In this document: in pieces, positions 21,261 to 64,000 of the stretch
Position numbering within the stretch: the stretch's first letter is position 1
How the letters are laid out: each line of letters starts with the position of its first letter
Notes under the pieces: model-generated
Told to the model about the DNA's origin: nothing
Database searches by the model: none
Seen by the model: only the letters and a program-made list of their open reading frames with translations
Program-made: the position numbers and the translations under genes
NCBI RefSeq assembly: GCF_000226255.1
Contig: NZ_AGFG01000061.1
Span: 186,001-250,000 of the forward strand
DNA from: Desulfovibrio sp. A2
GTDB lineage: Bacteria; Desulfobacterota; Desulfovibrionia; Desulfovibrionales; Desulfovibrionaceae
DNA: 64,000 nucleotides
Reading direction: 5' to 3'

Positions 21261-23780
21261 ATGCCCAAGCGCGCCGCCCACCGCCCCGGCACGCCGCCCC
21301 GCGCCGGGGGCTCGACCCCTTCCACCCCGGAGGCTCCGTCCGGATCGGGCATGTCTGATTGCCCCGCGCGTGCCGCCGCAGCGCCTTCCGCATCTTCCAT
21401 GCCCCCCTCGCCCCTCTCGTCCCCCTTGCCCGGAACGGGCGCGGCCGTGCCGCCCGACACGCCCTCCGCCGCCCCAGCCGAGATGTTTCCGCCGCCCCCC
21501 CCGCAAACCCCGGAGCAGGAACTGCAACGCCTGCGGGCCGAGGCGGCCGTGCTGCGCCACCGGCTGCGCAAGGCAGAGGCGCGCCTGCTGCCCCTGGACG
21601 CCGACCCCGAAACCCCGGACATGCTCCTGGACGCCGTGCCCCTGCTGGCCCTGTGCGTGGATGCGGACGGCCGGGTGCGCATGGTCAACCGGGGGTTCGA
21701 ATCGCTGTTCGGCGTCTGGCGCATGCAGGCGCGCGGTCGTCGGCTGGAGCAACTCGTCACGCCCGGCGTGGCCGCCCAGCTTGCGCCCCTGCTGGCCCGC
21801 GCCTTCGCGGGCGAGCAGCGGGTGACGGGCGAACTGGCCGTCACCGGCCGCGCGGGCGAGCGGCATTTCAACGTGACCCTGGCGGGGCGGGGGATGCCGG
21901 GCAACGGCATCATGTGCCGGGTTTTGCTGGTGGGGGTGGAGATCACCGACGCCGTCATCGCCCGCCGCGCCCTGCGCGAGGTGGGCGAAACACGCCGCGC
22001 CCTGCTGGACGCCGCGCCGGGGGCCGCCTTTCTGATGGAGACGGACGGCACCATCGTGGCGCACAACAGCGCCGCGTCGCGCCATGCCTGGCGCGACGGG
22101 CAGGACATGACCGGTGAAAGCGTGTTCGCCCATATGCCCCCGGAAATGGCCGCGCGCCGCCGGGCGGAGCTTGGCCAGTGCATCGCCACCGGGCACGGCG
22201 GCTCCTTCGAGGACCGGGACGGGGGACGCGTCCTGCGCCACAACTTGGTGCCCGTGCGCGACGCGGAAGGCCGCGTGGCCCAGGTCGCCGTGTACGTGCA
22301 CGACGTGACCGTCCAGCGCCGGGCCGAAGAAGAGCTGCAGGCCACCCTGGAGCGCAAGGACCGCATGGTCCACGCCCACGAGGCCGCGCTGGGCCGCCAC
22401 GAGCGGCTGCTGCGCCGCATTTACGACGACGTGCCCGTGGGCCTGCTGCACACCAGCGCGGCGGGTAACGTCATCGAGGCCAACCGCGCGCTGTGCGCCA
22501 TCACCGGGCTGACCTTGGGCGAGATGCGCGGCATGCACGTGCTGGACCTGGTGTTGCCCGAATACCGCGAGGCGCTGGCCTTCGAGATGCAGCGCAACCG
22601 GGCCGAGCGCGACCGCGTGGCCCGCTTCGAGGTGCGGGTGCGCCGCTCGGACGGCCAGATCCGACTGTGCCGGGTCACCTCCACGGTGGTCTGGGGCACC
22701 GACGATCTGCCCCTGTTCGGTCTGGGCGTGGTAGAGGACCAGACGGAACTGCACCGCCTGCGGGCCGAGGCCGTGCGGGCCGGGCAGCTGGCCGCGCTGG
22801 GCGAACTGGCCGCCGGGGTGGCGCACGAGATCAACAACCCCATCAACGGCATCATCAACTGCGCCCAGCTCATGCTGGACGACGCGGACGCCTCGGCCCA
22901 GGGGGGCATGCGCCACGAGCCGCAGCCGGAACTGGCCGGGCGCATCCTGCGCGAGGGGCAGCGCATCGCGGGCATCGTGCGCAACCTGCTGTTCTTCGGG
23001 CGCGACCGGCGCGACACCGATGCCCGGGTGGACCTGCGCGAGGTGCTGCACGATGCCCTGGCGCTCAGCCGCGCCCACATGGAGGGCGACGGGGTGGCCA
23101 TCGAACTGGATCTGCCCGACGTGCCGCTGATGGTCGTCGGCCGTCCCGGCGAGTTGCAGCAGGTGTTCATGAACCTGCTGGCCAACGCCCACCAGGCCAT
23201 GAATGCGATCCCGCCCGGCGAATCCGGCAGCCCGGCCGCGCGCCCCAAGCGCCTGACCCTTACGGCCGCCCGGTCTTCCAAGGGGCCGCACAGGACGGGT
23301 GCGCGGCGGGGCGCATCGCTGGCGGATGGCGGCGACCGCTGCCGGGGCACGTGCATCACCGAGCGCCGCGGTACGCGGCGGCCCGGCGGGCGGCTTGCGG
23401 TAAGCGGACCCTGCGTATGCGTGACCGTGGCCGATACCGGCACGGGCGTCGACCCGGCGGTGCTGGACAGGGTGTTCGAGCCGTTCTTCACCACCAAGCC
23501 GGAGGGCAAGGGCACCGGGCTCGGCCTGTCCATCAGCTACGGCATCATCAAGAGTCATGGCGGCTCGCTGGTGCTGGACAGCGACGGACGTTCGGGCGCC
23601 CGCGCCGTGGTGGTCCTGCCGGAGGCGGCGGTTGCCGTCTCGCCCGACCAGCCGGACGAGCCGGGCCAGCCGGACGCGCCGGACTCAGGGGGCACGAAGG
23701 GCGCGGAGGGCGCGGCGGAAGGATCAAGGACTCCGATTCCGGGGGGGGAGGTCGCCCATGGCGAAAATACTGCTCGTTGA
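21261..23780 (+). CDS. Cytoplasmic PAS sensor histidine kinase
   Basis: This 839-residue kinase has no membrane segments. A Pro/Ala-rich N-terminus of about 80 residues and a short coiled coil (LQRLRAEAAVLRHRLRKAEA) lead to three PAS domains (about 115-240, 245-360, 385-500), a HisKA helix with AAGVAHEINNPINGI (His near 522), and an ATPase domain with TGTGVDPAVLDRVFEPFF and GTGLGLSISYG. Between the N and G1 boxes lies an unusual basic, Gly/Arg-rich insertion (about residues 650-705). The gene overlaps the response-regulator gene by 23 bases. PAS inputs suggest a redox or small-molecule cue inside the cell. Confidence 0.9.
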   Translation: MPKRAAHRPGTPPRAGGSTPSTPEAPSGSGMSDCPARAAAAPSASSMPPSPLSSPLPGTGAAVPPDTPSAAPAEMFPPPPPQTPEQELQRLRAEAAVLRHRLRKAEARLLPLDADPETPDMLLDAVPLLALCVDADGRVRMVNRGFESLFGVWRMQARGRRLEQLVTPGVAAQLAPLLARAFAGEQRVTGELAVTGRAGERHFNVTLAGRGMPGNGIMCRVLLVGVEITDAVIARRALREVGETRRALLDAAPGAAFLMETDGTIVAHNSAASRHAWRDGQDMTGESVFAHMPPEMAARRRAELGQCIATGHGGSFEDRDGGRVLRHNLVPVRDAEGRVAQVAVYVHDVTVQRRAEEELQATLERKDRMVHAHEAALGRHERLLRRIYDDVPVGLLHTSAAGNVIEANRALCAITGLTLGEMRGMHVLDLVLPEYREALAFEMQRNRAERDRVARFEVRVRRSDGQIRLCRVTSTVVWGTDDLPLFGLGVVEDQTELHRLRAEAVRAGQLAALGELAAGVAHEINNPINGIINCAQLMLDDADASAQGGMRHEPQPELAGRILREGQRIAGIVRNLLFFGRDRRDTDARVDLREVLHDALALSRAHMEGDGVAIELDLPDVPLMVVGRPGELQQVFMNLLANAHQAMNAIPPGESGSPAARPKRLTLTAARSSKGPHRTGARRGASLADGGDRCRGTCITERRGTRRPGGRLAVSGPCVCVTVADTGTGVDPAVLDRVFEPFFTTKPEGKGTGLGLSISYGIIKSHGGSLVLDSDGRSGARAVVVLPEAAVAVSPDQPDEPGQPDAPDSGGTKGAEGAAEGSRTPIPGGEVAHGENTAR

Positions 23781-25752
23781 CGACGAGGAGAGCATCCGCT
23801 TCACCCTTTCGGCCTTTCTGCGGCGCGACGGCCACGTGGTGGTCACGGCCGCGTCCCTGGACGAGGCGGCGCGCGCGCTGGAACCGGCCAACGGCGGCCC
23901 GCCGGACCTGGTGGTCACCGACATCGTGCTGCGCGGCGAGAACGGGCTGGATTTCACGCGCCTGGTGCGCGAACGCTGCCCCTTCGTGCCGGTCATCCTG
24001 CTCACGGGCCGCCCCAGCTTGGAATCGGCCGTGCGGGCCGTGTCGGAAGGCGCGGAGCAGTACCTGATCAAGCCCGTGGACAAGGAGCAGATGCTTCAGG
24101 CGGCGCGCAGCGCCTTGCGCCACAAGGCCCTGGATGACGAGCGCCGTTCCCTGGTGGCGGAACGCGAAAATTTGCGGGTGCATCTGGAGGCGGTGTTCCA
24201 GGCAGTGCCCGACGTGCTGGTGACCGTGACCCCCGACCTGCGGGTGCAGCGCATGAACCTTGCCGCGCGCGAACTGCCTGGCGGCGCGCGCGACGCGCGC
24301 CAGACCGTGGGCCGCCGTTTCGACGAGGCGTTGGGGTTGTTCGCGCCGCTGTTCCGCCCGGTGCTGGACGAGACGCTGGGCACGCGCCGGGCATCGCGGC
24401 GGCGCAGGGTTTCGGCCCAACTGGCCGACGGCCGGGAGCAGGTGTTCGAGATCGAGGCCGCTCCGCTGGCCGGCACCGGGGGCGAATTCCTGGGCGCGCT
24501 GCTGGTGGCGCGCGACGTCACCCGGCTGGCCGGGCTGGAGGAAGCCCTGGGCCAGCGGGCGGGCATGAACCAGATCATCGGGCGCAGCACGCCCATGTGC
24601 GAGCTGTTCCGCCTGCTGGACGAACTGGCCCAGACCGACACCACCGTGCTCATCACCGGCGAATCGGGCACCGGCAAGGAACTGGTGGCCGAGGCCCTGC
24701 ACCGGGGCGGGCCGCGCGCGCTGGGGCCGCTGGTCAAGGTGAACTGCTCGGCGCTTTCCGAACACCTGCTGGAAAGCGAACTGTTCGGCCATGTGCGCGG
24801 GGCCTTCACCGGGGCCGTGCGCGACAGGGTGGGGCGCTTCCAACTGGCGCACGGGGGCACCATCTTCCTGGACGAGATCGGCGACGTTTCGTCCGCCGTG
24901 CAGCTCAAGCTGTTGCGGGTGTTGCAGGAACGCGAGTTCGAGCGGGTGGGCGACACGCGCACCGTGAAGGTGGACGTGCGGGTCATCGCCGCCACCAACC
25001 GGCCGCTGCTCGATCTGGTGCGTTCCGGCAGGCTGCGCGAGGACCTCTACTACCGGCTGCGGGTGGTGGAACTGCACCTGCCCGCCCTGCGCGACCGGCG
25101 GTCGGACATTCCGCTGCTGGTGGATCATTTCGTGGAGCAGTTCAACATTCATTTTCACCGCCGCGTGGCAGGGGTGACCCCGGCGGCGCTGAACGCGCTC
25201 ATGGCGCACGCCTGGCCGGGCAACGTGCGCGAACTGCGCCATGCGCTGGAGCACGGCTTCATCCTCTCGCGGGGCGACGTCATCGATGTGGACGCCCTGC
25301 CGCCCGAAGTGCGCATTGCCGCCGGGCTGGCTGTTCCCGCACCGTCCGCCCCCCGGATTATTCCCTGCGAGGATGTTCCGGCGCATCCCGGAAAGGGCGA
25401 GGTGGAGGCCCCGGCCGCGCCCCCACGCATTCCGCCCCACGGAGCAGGGCATGCGGGCATTTTTCCTGACGGCATTCCCGTGGACCTGGCCTTGGCCGGG
25501 CGTGGGTCGCCACAGGAACCTTCCGGCGGCCAGGTGGACGAGGACGGCGGGCCCTACGGCCCCGAGGCGGCCCGCCGCCTGCGGCTGACCAGGGAACTGC
25601 TGGCGGGGGCGCTGCGCCGGGCGGGCGGCAACAAGGCGCGCGCCGCACGGTTGCTGGGCGTGTCGCGCCAGACGGTGTACCGCAAGCTGGCGGAATTCGG
25701 CATGGCCGATGCCGATGTCGATGGCGAAGATGAGGGGGGCGGCGGCGACTGA
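23758..25752 (+). CDS. Sigma-54-dependent response regulator
   Basis: The 664-residue NtrC-type activator has a receiver domain (1-120; LLVDDEES, phospho-acceptor Asp55 in VVTDIV, KP near 103), a PAS-like region (about 140-250), an AAA+ domain with Walker A GESGTGKE near 301 and the sigma-54 contact loop GAFTGA at 348-353, and a Fis-type helix-turn-helix (about 615-655; [21 protein letters not shown]). A proline-rich linker separates AAA+ from the DNA-binding domain. The start overlaps the kinase gene and is preceded by GGGGAGGTC. It is the cognate partner of the PAS kinase and should drive sigma-54 promoters. Confidence 0.95.
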
Positions 25753-25846: not shown

Positions 25847-26002
25847 GCCAACGCACCATCCGCAGGGGAGGCCACCGGTGCGCCGGAATTTCATTCGTTT
25901 TTTCTGGCATGTTTATCTTGGTTTTTTATGGTTCATGATTGTGCGTAGTGGTTGTCATTGGTTTTTGAAGGTTTGTTTGCGGAACGAGAAGTGTCAATCC
26001 TT

Positions 26003-26030
26003 GTGCACGTTTTCCTCTTGTTTCGTGACT
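26003..26030. promoter_or_regulatory. Candidate TunR operator upstream of tupA
   Basis: CACG at 26006-26009 and CGTG at 26024-26027 are separated by exactly 14 A/T-rich bases. Extended by three bases each side, this is the same 28-bp geometry as the perfect palindrome in the tsup/tunR spacer. It begins about 100 bases before the tupA ATG, in an A/T-rich region (25880-26060) that must hold the promoter. A possible -10 (TAGGAT, 26042-26047) lies just downstream, so a protein here would cover the -35 position, as expected for an activator. Half-site GTGTCA also occurs at 25991-25996. Confidence 0.6.
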
Positions 26031-26106
26031 GTTATGGCTGCTAGGATTGACGACGATTGGAGAAAAGCCGGACCCTCACCGACAAACAACAACCTCGGAG
26101 GATGCC

Positions 26107-26928
26107 ATGCGTCGTCTGCTTCTCGTGTTGTGCCTGTTCACCGTGTTGCTGCCCGCGCAGTCCATGGCAGCGGACAAGGTGCTGATGATGGCCACCACCA
26201 CCAGCACCGCCGATACCGGCCTGCTCGACGACCTCGCCCCCGCCTTCCAGAAGGAGACGGGCATCGAGCTCAAGTTCACGGCCACCGGAACCGGCAAGGC
26301 GCTGGAAATGGGCCGCAGCTGCAACGTGGACGTGCTGCTGGTGCACGACCCCGAGGCCGAGGCCAGGTTCGTGGGTGACGGCTTCGGCATCAACCGCGTC
26401 CAGCTGATGTACAACGATTTCGTCATGGTGGGTCCCAAGGCCGATCCGGCGAGCATCAAGGGCAAGACCGTGGCCGAGGCCATGAAGGCCCTGTCCGGCG
26501 GCAAGGCCCCGTTCATCAGCCGCGGCGACAAGTCCGGCACCCATGCCCTGGAACTGCGCCTGTGGAAGGACACCGGCGTGGGCGTGCCCGAAGGCAAGGA
26601 ATGGTACGTCGAAGCCGGGCAGGGCATGATGCGCACCATCGCCATGTGCGCGGAAAAGGGCGGCTACACCCTTACCGACCGGGGCACCTGGATCAAGTAC
26701 GAGGCTGGCCTGAAGGAACCCGGCCCGCTGGCCATCGTGGTGGAAAAGGACCAGAAGCTGTTCAACCAGTACAGCTCCATCACCGTGAACCCGGCCAAGT
26801 GCCCCTCGGCCAAGGCCGACCTGGCCGACGCCTTCACCAAGTGGATGGCCAGCCCTTCCACCCAGAAGCGCATCGCCGACTTCAAGCTGATGGAAAAGCC
26901 GCTGTTCACGCCCAACGCGGGCAAGTAG
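26107..26928 (+). CDS. tupA: Tungstate ABC transporter, substrate-binding protein
   Basis: TupA captures tungstate in the periplasm. The 273-residue precursor has a signal peptide (MRRLLLVLCLFTVLL, cleavage after SMAA) and the TupA signature ATTTSTADTGLLDDLAP, with further landmarks FTATGTGKALEMGRSC, DVLLVHDPEAE, and SRGDKSGTHALELRLWK. The TTTST and SGTH motifs form the oxyanion pocket in this family and favour tungstate over molybdate. CGGAGGATGCC precedes the ATG; a longer frame starting at 26047 would spoil the signal peptide. It is the first gene of tupABC, with a candidate TunR site upstream. Confidence 0.95.
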   Translation: MRRLLLVLCLFTVLLPAQSMAADKVLMMATTTSTADTGLLDDLAPAFQKETGIELKFTATGTGKALEMGRSCNVDVLLVHDPEAEARFVGDGFGINRVQLMYNDFVMVGPKADPASIKGKTVAEAMKALSGGKAPFISRGDKSGTHALELRLWKDTGVGVPEGKEWYVEAGQGMMRTIAMCAEKGGYTLTDRGTWIKYEAGLKEPGPLAIVVEKDQKLFNQYSSITVNPAKCPSAKADLADAFTKWMASPSTQKRIADFKLMEKPLFTPNAGK

Positions 26929-26952
26929 CGGCGCAGAACGTTCGCAATCCGG

Positions 26953-26979
26953 CGGCGGGGCGGCGATGTCGTCCCGCCG
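26953..26979. other. Hairpin between tupA and tupB
   Basis: CGGCGGGG and TCCCGCCG can form an 8-bp stem (one G-U pair) 24 bases after the tupA stop, with no T-run. A stem at this place could stabilise tupA RNA or reduce read-through, giving more binding protein than permease. Confidence 0.35.
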
Positions 26980-27103
26980 TCCTCGCATGGGCTTCCTGTT
27001 TGCCTGATGTTTTCGATACGCATGTTCCGCCCGACAGTTCCGCGCAGCCCGCCTGTCCGGCTGGATGGCGTTTAAAGTCCCCCCTAAGGAGACGGCCCCT
27101 TCC

Positions 27104-27799
27104 ATGGACTACCTGCTCGACGGCCTCGTCACCGCCCTGCGCCTGCTGGCCATGGGCGACGCCGAAACCTTCTCCGCCGTTTGGATAACCCTCGCGGCGT
27201 CGGGAATGTCCATCGCCGCGTGCTTGGCCATCGGCGCGCCGCTGGGATTCCTGATCGGCTACCACGACTTTCCCGGCCGCAAGGCGGTGCGCATCGCCGT
27301 GGATACGGCTCTGTGCTTCCCCACCGTGGTCATCGGCCTGCTGGTGTACCTGTTGCTGTCGCGGCAGGGGCCGATGGGCGAACTGGGGTTGCTGTTCACC
27401 ATTCCCGGCATGGCCATCGGCCTGACGTTGCTGGGGGTGCCCATCGTCATGGCCATGACCGCGCTGGCCGTGGAGCAGGCCGACGCGCGCCTGCGCCTGA
27501 CCCTGCTCACCCTGGGGGCCGACGGGCGGCAGATGCTTACGGCCACGTTGTGGGAAACCCGCTACCACCTGATGCTGGCGGGGGTGGCGGCCTTCGGGCG
27601 CATCGTCTCAGAGGTGGGTATTTCCATGATGGTGGGGGGCAACATCAAGTGGCACACCCGCACCATCACCACGGCCATCGCGCTGGAAACGGGCAAGGGC
27701 GACTATGCCCTCGGCATCGCCCTGGGGCTGGTGCTGCTGGCCATGGCCCTGCTGCTGAACCTGATGCTGGCGGCGCTGCGCAGGAGGGCCGGACGATGA
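27104..27799 (+). CDS. tupB: Tungstate ABC transporter, permease
   Basis: This 231-residue inner-membrane permease starts MDYLLDGLVTALRLLAMGDAE and has five to six hydrophobic helices. The cytoplasmic coupling loop reads LLTLGADGRQMLTATLWETRY, followed by GRIVSEVGISMMVGGNIK, both typical of TupB/CysW-like permeases. I chose the ATG at 27104, which follows AAGGAG although at long spacing; an in-frame ATG at 27065 lacks a ribosome site. Its stop overlaps the tupC start (ATGA), so permease and ATPase are translationally coupled. Confidence 0.92.
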   Translation: MDYLLDGLVTALRLLAMGDAETFSAVWITLAASGMSIAACLAIGAPLGFLIGYHDFPGRKAVRIAVDTALCFPTVVIGLLVYLLLSRQGPMGELGLLFTIPGMAIGLTLLGVPIVMAMTALAVEQADARLRLTLLTLGADGRQMLTATLWETRYHLMLAGVAAFGRIVSEVGISMMVGGNIKWHTRTITTAIALETGKGDYALGIALGLVLLAMALLLNLMLAALRRRAGR

Positions 27800-28524
27800 C
27801 CGGCCGCGACTCCGGCGCTTCCCCGGCGCTGCCCCTGGACTCCGCCGACGCGCCGTGCGCCCGCTGCGCCGTTCCCCTGTATTCGCTGGAAGGCGTGGTG
27901 CGTCGCCATGGCGAACGCGCCGTGCTCGAGGTGCCCCGGCTGGACATTGCCGCCGGGGGCATCACCGGCGTGGTGGGCCCCAACGGCGGCGGCAAGTCCA
28001 CCCTGCTGCGCCTGCTGGCCCTGCTGGACGCGCCCAGCCAGGGCGTGCTGCGCTTTGCGGGCGAGGCGGTGGGACCTCTGTCCGCCGCGCGGACGGCCGA
28101 GTTGCGCCGTTCGGTCACCCTGCTGCTGCAGGAACCCTACCTGCTGCGCCGCAGCGTGTACGAAAACGTGGCCTTCGGCCTGTCCGTGCGCGGCATGCGC
28201 CATGCGCAGGACGCCGTGCGCGGGGCGCTGGAACTGGTGGCCCTGGATCCGGACGTGTTCCAGCGCCGCCGCTGGTTCGAACTTTCCGGCGGCGAGGCCC
28301 AGCGCGTGGCCCTGGCCGCACGGCTGGCCTTTTCGCCGCGCGTGCTGCTGATGGACGAACCCACGGCCAGCCTGGACGAAGACAGCGCGGCCCGCATCGC
28401 CGACGCGGCCCGCGCCGTGGCCGGGCGCGGCACCACGGTCATCGTGGTCTCGCATGACCGCGACTGGCTGGAACCTTTGGCGGGCCGCATCCTGAAGGTG
28501 CGGCGGGGGCAGGTGGAAGGATAG
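27796..28524 (+). CDS. tupC: Tungstate ABC transporter, ATP-binding protein
   Basis: The 242-residue ATPase powers tungstate import. After an N-terminal extension of about 25 residues it shows Walker A GPNGGGKSTLLRLL, a Q-loop (LLQEPYLL), the ABC signature LSGGEAQRVALAARL, Walker B VLLMDEPTASLDE and the switch His in IVVSHDRDW. No C-terminal regulatory domain such as TOBE is attached, so control by the metal oxyanion must act elsewhere, consistent with TunR. The start overlaps the tupB stop. A strong hairpin lies 86 bases downstream. Confidence 0.93.
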   Translation: MTGRDSGASPALPLDSADAPCARCAVPLYSLEGVVRRHGERAVLEVPRLDIAAGGITGVVGPNGGGKSTLLRLLALLDAPSQGVLRFAGEAVGPLSAARTAELRRSVTLLLQEPYLLRRSVYENVAFGLSVRGMRHAQDAVRGALELVALDPDVFQRRRWFELSGGEAQRVALAARLAFSPRVLLMDEPTASLDEDSAARIADAARAVAGRGTTVIVVSHDRDWLEPLAGRILKVRRGQVEG

Positions 28525-61953: not shown

Positions 61954-62907
61954 CTACCTGAAAAACTCCACCACGTACTTCCCCGCCGTGAACAGCAGGA
62001 TGCAGCACAGCATCCACTTGATCAGGTTTGCGGGCACATGCTTCTGGCAGCGCGCGCCCAGGTACATGCCCGCCATGCCGCCAATGCCCAGCAGCAGGCC
62101 CAACATCCAGTCCGGGGCCACGGACATGTGCGGGTACAGCGGCGCGATGGCCATGTAAAAGGTGACGCCCGCCACAGAGGTGACGAAGGTGCCCATAAGG
62201 GCCGCGCCCGCCACGGTGTATACCGGCAGCCCGAAGAACGAGACGAAGAACGGCGCGATTATGGCCCCGCCGCCAATGCCGTACACCCCGCCCACGATCC
62301 CCACGATGAAGCTCAGGGTAAAGATGCCCACGGTGCGGAAGCTGTAGGTTTCGCCGTAGAAGCTGTACGAGATGCGCGACAGGCAGCATTCGTTCATGCA
62401 CACGGCGGGCAGATCGTCGGGGTTCTTGCCTTCCGCCGCCGCCTTTTCGCGGTGGGTGCGCACCAGCGAGCGGAACTTTTCCTCCGCCGTGGCCTTTCCG
62501 TTGCCCGCCTTCTTCTTGGTGAGGTCGCGCACCATGCGCAGGGCGATGTAGGCCAGCACGCACGCGGCGAACAGCTTGAAGTCGCGCGCGTCCGGCAGGT
62601 ACGTCACCCGCACGAAGGCCCCTATCAGCACCCCCGGCAGCGTGCCGATGATCACCACCCACGTCAGCGGCCAGACCATGCGCCCTTCGCGGATGTAGCG
62701 GTACACCCCGCTGGGAATGGCCACCACGTTGTAGAACTGGTTGGTGGCGCTGACGGAAGGGTTCACGTAGCCCAGGAAGGACATCTGGAAGGGCAGCAGC
62801 AGGAACGCGCCCGACACGCCCCCCATGGACATGAAGAATGACACCACGAACGCCACCAGCGGCGGTATCCACGGTTCCGTGTGTATGCCTGCGACGGGGA
62901 AGTACAT
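61954..62907 (-). CDS. TSUP (TauE/SafE) family permease
   Basis: The 317-residue membrane protein matches the TSUP/DUF81 family: VSFFMSMGGVSGAFLLLPFQMSFLG, then FIVGIVGGVYGIGGGAIIAPFFVSFFG in the second repeat, with seven to eight helices. A cytoplasmic insertion near residues 120-160 contains charged residues and DLPAVCMNECCLSRISYSF. In sulfate reducers TSUP genes repressed by TunR are proposed to move molybdate or tungstate, or related oxyanions. AGGAGGTCGCC precedes the ATG. A C10 tract (62926-62935) and the 28-bp palindrome lie in the leader/promoter region shared with tunR. Confidence 0.92.
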   Translation of the reverse strand: MYFPVAGIHTEPWIPPLVAFVVSFFMSMGGVSGAFLLLPFQMSFLGYVNPSVSATNQFYNVVAIPSGVYRYIREGRMVWPLTWVVIIGTLPGVLIGAFVRVTYLPDARDFKLFAACVLAYIALRMVRDLTKKKAGNGKATAEEKFRSLVRTHREKAAAEGKNPDDLPAVCMNECCLSRISYSFYGETYSFRTVGIFTLSFIVGIVGGVYGIGGGAIIAPFFVSFFGLPVYTVAGAALMGTFVTSVAGVTFYMAIAPLYPHMSVAPDWMLGLLLGIGGMAGMYLGARCQKHVPANLIKWMLCCILLFTAGKYVVEFFR

Positions 62908-62989: not shown

Positions 62990-63017
62990 TGACACGTTTT
63001 TTATAATCTTCGTGTCA
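62990..63017. promoter_or_regulatory. TunR operator between tsup and tunR
   Basis: A perfect inverted repeat with arms TGACACG (62990-62996) and CGTGTCA (63011-63017) and a 14-base A/T centre, total 28 bp. This size matches XerC/D-type core sites, as expected for a regulator derived from a recombinase. TATAAA on the minus strand lies inside the centre and could be the -10 of tsup; TATAAT lies there on the plus strand. Binding would block tsup transcription. Confidence 0.75.
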
Positions 63018-63095
63018 ATGAAAAGATAGCGCATCGGAAAACCGTTGTCACGGATTATTTCATTTTCATGTCCGTGCGCGGCCTGAAACACGGCT

Positions 63096-63285: not shown

Positions 63286-64000
63286 ATGCGACAGGACGAC
63301 AGCCTCGAACGAATCTGGGAAGCGCTGGCCGAAAACGTGTCGGAACGCCGTCACAACCCGGCGGGCATGCTCTCCATTCCCGACGACGTGAAGTATCTGG
63401 ACACGGTGGAACTGGCCCGGCTGGAAGAAGCCTTCCGCCTGTGGGCCGCCCGTCCGGCGCGGGGCGACGTGCGCCGTTCGCGCCTGCGCATGCTGCTGGT
63501 GTTCCTGCTCATCCGCCACACCGGGGCGCGCCTGGGCGAGGTGCTGGCCCTGGCCCCCGCCCGCGACATCGACGCGGCGCGCGGCGTGGCGTACCTTGGC
63601 GAACCGCCCCGCGAGGTGCAGTTGCCGCCCGATCTCGCCGCCCAGCTTTCAGACCTGCTGGACGAGGCCGTGGCGGGCGAGGGCGAACACCCCTTTGCCG
63701 TGGATCAGGCCCACGTGCGCCGCAAGTTCTACGAGCGCGCCCACGAATGCGACCTGGCCCCGGACCTGGCCAACCCCAGCGCCCTGCGCCGTTCGCGGGC
63801 CATCGAACTGTTGCGATCCGGCCTGCCGCTGCCGGTGGTGCAGCGTCTGCTGGGCCATTCCACGGCCAGCCTGACGGCGGCCTACATCGACGTTTCAAAC
63901 GAGGACATGCAGCGCATGGTGGGCCACGCGCTGGACCGCGAGCAGCGCCGCCGCACCAGCGCGCGCAACGCCTTCTACGGGCGTATCGCGGCGGTGGTGC
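63286..64000 (+). CDS. tunR: TunR-type tungstate-responsive regulator (partial, XerC/D-like domain)
   Basis: The gene starts at ATG 63286 and runs off the window after 238 codons. The visible part is a tyrosine-recombinase-like domain: FLLIRHTGARLGEVLALAPA (first Arg retained), ALRRSRAIELLRSGLPLPVVQRLLGHSTASLTAAYIDV (Arg, Gly-His and Tyr retained). The His of the usual HxLR box is Ser, and the residue after the Arg is Arg rather than His. In the TunR family such a domain binds DNA and is followed by molybdate/tungstate-sensing Mop domains, which would lie beyond base 64000. The adjacent TSUP gene and 28-bp palindrome support this call. A true integrase is the alternative. Confidence 0.82.
   Translation, partial: MRQDDSLERIWEALAENVSERRHNPAGMLSIPDDVKYLDTVELARLEEAFRLWAARPARGDVRRSRLRMLLVFLLIRHTGARLGEVLALAPARDIDAARGVAYLGEPPREVQLPPDLAAQLSDLLDEAVAGEGEHPFAVDQAHVRRKFYERAHECDLAPDLANPSALRRSRAIELLRSGLPLPVVQRLLGHSTASLTAAYIDVSNEDMQRMVGHALDREQRRRTSARNAFYGRIAAVV

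Follow-up and report, generated by a model that had tools for sequence, protein, structure and literature searches.

A conserved TunR-type palindrome upstream of tupABC, a predicted target of the TunR regulator family

The palindrome CACG-N14-CGTG found upstream of tupA in the 64,000 nucleotides of Desulfovibrio sp. A2 DNA analysed here (the window) is probably an operator of TunR, a regulator with an integrase-type domain and TOBE domains. We base this reading on three observations: the palindrome is kept at this place throughout the genus, a matrix built from other sites ranks it third in the window, and 12 of the 70 tupA upstream regions read contain such a site. The tup importer itself probably answers to the TunR family. 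An earlier note had gone further and put tungstate uptake and oxyanion efflux by the TSUP transporter under one regulator, with opposite signs. This does not follow, since the genome encodes two TunR paralogs, one linked to TSUP and the other to mod, and the tup site mixes the features of both site types.

Table 1. Positions, in the window, of the features discussed in the text
Feature	Position	Strand	Remarks
GGT repeats, 10-bp phase, candidate second operator	25920..25972	+	repeats start at 25920, 25930, 25950, 25960, 25970
TunR-like palindrome CACG-N14-CGTG	26006..26027	.	CACGTTTTCCTCTTGTTTCGTG as read on the (+) strand; upstream of tupA, 3' end 79 bp before the ATG at 26107
Candidate tupA promoter	26018..26047	+	TTGTTT (26018-26023), 18 bp, TAGGAT (26042-26047); weak, predicted
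tupA, tungstate-binding protein	26107..26928	+	NF041772 325 bits, below cut-off 400; PDB 5my5 chain A 352 bits
tupB, permease	27104..27799	+	NF041773 261 bits, below cut-off 320
tupC, ABC ATPase	27796..28524	+	operon tupA-tupC 26107 to 28524
TSUP family transporter	61957..62907	-	Pfam TauE
First TunR-like site of the TSUP/tunR region, used for training	62993..63014	.	N14 spacing, 35.9 bits
Second TunR-like site of the TSUP/tunR region	63049..63070	.	23.4 bits; one mismatch in an arm; 56 bp away from the preceding site
tunR, TSUP-linked paralog	63286..64000	+	ATG at 63286, continues past the window; integrase domain, two TOBE stretches

The best NCBIfam models for the first two proteins of the operon are those of TupA and TupB, but both proteins miss the equivalog cut-offs (Table 1). 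The first also matches 5my5, presumably the solved TupA of the D. alaskensis type, and the operon is treated here as functionally TupABC-like. Directly before tupA lie the genes of a sensor kinase (PAS, HisKA) and of a sigma-54-type response regulator (21261-25752). No Rfam element upstream of tupA was matched in the window at gathering scores.

The tup palindrome has the N14 spacing of the training site between TSUP and tunR, which lies 36,987 bp away, and A or T at 10 of its 14 central positions; on both points the earlier note had described it correctly. Its arms fit the form CAC(G/C)-N14-CGTG of the TSUP and mod sites. The right flank, ACTG, is like that of the modA site while the left one, TGTG, differs from the training sites; the site scores 13.8 bits against 35.9 for the TSUP site. 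A 9-bp inverted repeat which flanks the site (GTCAATCCT at 25993-26001, AGGATTGAC at 26043-26051) was set aside, being intact only in the strain itself among eight genomes.

The bare pattern CACG-N14-CGTG is weak evidence when taken alone because it is common: the window contains nine copies where 4.1 are expected (nine is reached in 2 of 100 shuffles) and the genome of 4.15 Mb contains 287. Our matrix, symmetric and 30 bp long, was built from 13 sites of the TSUP/tunR and mod regions and the tup sites were left out of it. It places the tup site third in the window, behind the two sites between TSUP and tunR (one of which is a training site) and ahead of a fourth place at 9.7 bits, which supports a site of TunR type at tupA. 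A score of 13.8 bits was reached by 11 of 5000 dinucleotide shuffles of the 260-bp upstream region of the site. Among 14 TunR loci outside the training set, some of which share a genome with a training locus, ten have a place of at least 17 bits between the expected genes (L125, L126, L127, L129, L130, L131, L133, L134, L136, L140) and four have no place at that level (L128, L132, L135, L137). The 339 kb around the TupA genes of other organisms contain seven places of at least 12 bits, only one of which is a counted tup site. Among the stretches of the own genome which were scanned, a place on contig 5 (20.1 bits) and one upstream of adh (15.9 bits) score with or above the tup site, and contig 20 has one place at 12.2 bits. 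The score of the tup site is thus not unique in the genome and by itself no proof.

We then consider the conservation of the site. The exact core is found upstream of tupA in all eight genomes of the genus, starting 100 to 114 bp before the ATG, but these genomes are close relatives and their agreement counts as one lineage, not as eight independent tests. In an ungapped alignment anchored on the core, 20 of its 22 columns are invariant, compared with 17 of 70 between -90 and -21 (Fisher 3e-8, columns treated as independent). Over the wider region from -130 to -21, which includes a one-base shift in one genome (G136) beyond -90, 25 of 110 columns are invariant. The site of the own genome is the weakest of the eight.

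Beyond the genus, TupA is matched in 115 of 149 genomes of the family, and we read the upstream DNA of 70 of them, mostly top-ranked and hence a non-random choice. Sites of at least 12 bits are present in 12 of these 70 genomes (300 rounds of shuffling give 0.41 on average and 4 at most), all within three genera: the own genus (8/8), a genus labelled g29 (2/3) and another labelled g41 (2/2, these being the genomes with an orthologous tupA). The third g29 genome has a site of 9.5 bits at the same place before tupA; the third g41 genome, which is outside the 70, has only a diverged tupA paralog, with no comparable site upstream. The tup sites of g29 and g41 are weaker than those of the own genus. 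Upstream of tupA in the other 57 genomes, no site attains 12 bits. The conservation among relatives on which the earlier note had made its proposal depend thus holds within these three genera and fails, at the 12-bit cut-off, in the other 57 of the 70 genomes.

As to the regulator, the TunR encoded beside TSUP has an integrase domain (PF00589, 42 bits against a cut-off of 27.1) and, in two stretches, the Mop/TOBE oxyanion domain (PF03459; TIGR00638 also matches). A second TunR, 42% identical to the first, is encoded on contig 27 between modA and modBC, where sites of the form CACC-N14-CGTG are kept before modA and before modBC in the genus. The complete lists of CACS-N11-YTTCGTG matches in three genomes of the genus (G000, which is the own genome, G066 and G100) include tup, TSUP, modA and modBC. 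As the tup site joins the CACG left arm of the TSUP type to the right flank CGTGACTG of the modA type, its sequence does not tell which of the two TunR proteins binds. Both TunR types are also present in g41. Each of the three g29 genomes has a single full-length TunR, linked to TSUP (one of these genomes, G082, is 87% complete), and N14 sites are found there before TSUP, where two lie 55-56 bp from each other, before tupA and, with scores of 21.0, 14.4 and 16.4 bits, in the mod region. In the mod region of G082 (L306), a small TOBE-only, Mop-like protein adjoins mod and there are two TunR-like places near it. Close relatives of TunR1 occur in a further genus, g26 (L056-L064), where flanks of 1.5 kb were read and are without TSUP.

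The sign of the regulation may be approached through the position of the site relative to promoters, all of which (tupA, TSUP, mod) are predictions made with sigma-70 frequencies. The earlier note had placed the site where an activator would sit. This agrees with the weak promoter predicted in the own genus, TTGTTT-18-TA(A/G)(C/G)A(n), from which the centre of the site is at about -37.5, but not with g29, where TTGCCA-17-TAAAnn ranks first in all three genomes, the site centre is at about +13.5 and 27 to 31 bp separate the end of the core from the ATG. Seven of the eight genomes have the candidate of the own genus among their top six, three of them in first place; G100 has similar letters there, outranked by other candidates, and a stricter scan of the own tupA region found no promoter. 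The layout of the tup site thus looks activator-like in the own genus and repressor-like in g29. For TSUP, GTGACA-17-TAT(C/T)TT ranks first in the four genomes of the genus examined, with the site centre at +12.5; in other genera the centre lies at about +11.5 with weak candidates (G060, G028), at -12.5 (G082), at -13.5 (G024) or at -43.5 (G065). For modBC it lies at -52.5 in the five genomes listed, the candidate, of weak score, being first in four and second in one. The promoter scan of modA, which we take to be a known activation target of TunR, gave no consistent candidate or geometry.

In the mechanism that we propose, TunR, probably as a dimer, would bind the palindrome at 26006-26027 through the integrase-type domain, while the TOBE domains would sense cytoplasmic tungstate or molybdate and thereby set the transcription of tupABC. 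In the own genus we lean slightly towards an activator, which would aid the polymerase at the weak tupA promoter when the oxyanion is scarce, against a repressor. In g29 TunR would repress tupA, since the site there is downstream of the predicted start.

The TunR regulons of sulfate-reducing Deltaproteobacteria, with mod genes and TSUP as targets, were reportedly described by Kazakov et al. in 2013 (J Bacteriol 195:4466). The present system resembles them in the regulator, which joins an integrase-type domain to TOBE, in the palindromes before TSUP and mod genes and in the division of the regulators into a mod-linked and a TSUP-linked group; it differs in the tup target, as the abstract reportedly has mod and TSUP only. 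In D. vulgaris, tupABC is said (Rajeev et al. 2019, Environ Microbiol 21:784) to be under the tungsten-responsive control of TaoR; the controlled operon is the same, whereas TaoR, with an excisionase-type HTH and PBP-like domains, is another protein than TunR. In Campylobacter jejuni, a ModE-like protein reportedly controls separate molybdenum and tungsten transporters (Taveirne et al. 2009). There too a single regulator is set over molybdate and tungstate transporters, but it is a ModE-like protein with a winged helix, whereas the regulator here is derived from an integrase. In the literature compared, TunR is linked to neither tup nor adh. We present tup as a predicted new TunR target within a known kind of system, unless the tables of Kazakov 2013 list it. 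If the prediction is true, the import of molybdate and tungstate and the TSUP transporter would share a regulator family, and probably a single protein in g29. A repressor-like layout common to tup and TSUP in g29 would fit badly with a TSUP which solely exports the metal imported by Tup. The own genus and g29 would also provide natural promoters for the study of how operator position decides whether a recombinase-derived regulator activates or represses.

Another factor, acting for instance at adh or on contig 5, might have a site of the same CACG-N14-CGTG shape and bind at tupA without any involvement of TunR; this we consider unlikely. We looked at the region upstream of adh, a gene named from its translation as that of an iron-type alcohol dehydrogenase, in four of the eight genomes of the genus (L313 of G066, L315 of G100, L158 of G038, L314 of G000). 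Three of them (G066, G100, G038) have three exact cores upstream of the ATG (at about -414, -357 and -217), while the own genome has an exact core at -217 and one arm mismatch in each of the other two. The spacing is fixed (57 and 140 bp), the arms are kept and the centres vary between genomes; three exact cores appeared in none of 20,000 Markov resamples made from one such region. The 57 bp resemble the 56 bp between the two sites of the TSUP/tunR pair. On contig 5 (10803-10824; position 1803 of L312), the place of 20.1 bits overlaps another palindrome, GTGTTCGAACAC, and lies, according to translations, after a gene of a sigma-54-type activator and before an open reading frame with a 4Fe-4S motif. 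The contig 5 place and the adh sites both lower our confidence in a TunR operator at tup. According to the available part of PMC3333781, the adh operon is regulated by DVU2394, which would favour a factor other than TunR, but this protein is said there to act through a direct repeat and not a palindrome, so that DVU2394 does not explain the adh palindromes. These may be further targets of TunR or sites of another factor, and in the former case they would no longer speak against TunR. Moreover, the ten non-training loci in which the N14 shape stands beside tunR tie this shape to TunR.

A TunR operator is also much to be preferred to an operator of TaoR (tupR/DVU3193), whose control of tupABC in D. 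vulgaris has been published; the TaoR operator we regard as quite improbable. The aor loci, which we take to be targets of TaoR, were scanned in the genus and have no N14 site comparable to those of tunR, TSUP and mod. An array of phased GGT repeats upstream of the palindrome would, moreover, better fit a protein of the excisionase type. On the other side, the available part of PMC10102598 assigns the regulation of tupABC to tupR/DVU3193, and a protein encoded on contig 31 of the own genome carries HTH_17 and PBP_like, which are the domains of TaoR in the available part of PMC11980592.

The GGT repeats are found at -86, -76, -56, -46 and -36 from the start of the core, in 6 to 8 of the eight genomes of the genus per column. 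In a test specific to this array, 2000 shuffles equalled it 0 times in G000 and G136, once in G066 and twice in G038; when the test is widened to all triplets and to periods of 7 to 15, only G000 and G136 of these four exceed all of 60 shuffles. Six genomes from outside the genus were also tested and lack the array; it is conserved in neither g29 nor g41. This phasing suggests a second operator at tupA, and we propose that it is the site of the HTH_17/PBP_like (TaoR-type) protein. A TaoR motif common to tupA and aor was sought by local alignment and dropped, the score being 23 while shuffles reach 29 (mean 17.4).

The remaining two explanations are both very improbable. The two-component sigma-54 activator encoded upstream (23557-25752) could control tupA through the palindrome, as its adjacency and its Response_reg, Sigma54_activat and HTH_8 domains would allow, but a simple spacing test finds no sigma-54-type promoter at tupA in the eight genomes of the genus, the targets given for DVU0744 (its ortholog by gene number only) in the available parts of PMC4641369 and PMC3333781 are DVU0682 and DVU0736, and DVU0745 is absent from the available text of PMC3333781. 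A functionless chance occurrence, which the abundance of the bare pattern in window and genome would permit, is largely disfavoured by the conservation of the core in 8 of 8 genomes beside diverged upstream DNA, and by the tupA sites of g29 and g41.

Returning to TunR, a wider and rather doubtful reading would make tup, mod, TSUP and adh together the TunR regulon of Nitratidesulfovibrio, which we take to be the own genus, and would tie the supply of tungsten and molybdenum to alcohol oxidation, the next step being that of a tungsten aldehyde oxidoreductase. At tup, the recombinase-derived TunR on the promoter and the excisionase-derived TaoR on the GGT array would then act jointly, and the shift of the operator between genera would turn activation into repression. 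The adh sites offer a testable link between metal supply and energy metabolism. As a separate observation, weak PBP_like matches occur about 1.8 kb from tupA in two genomes of g41 (G069:C1:1273160, G088:C1:1464932), possibly a TaoR-like gene beside tup.
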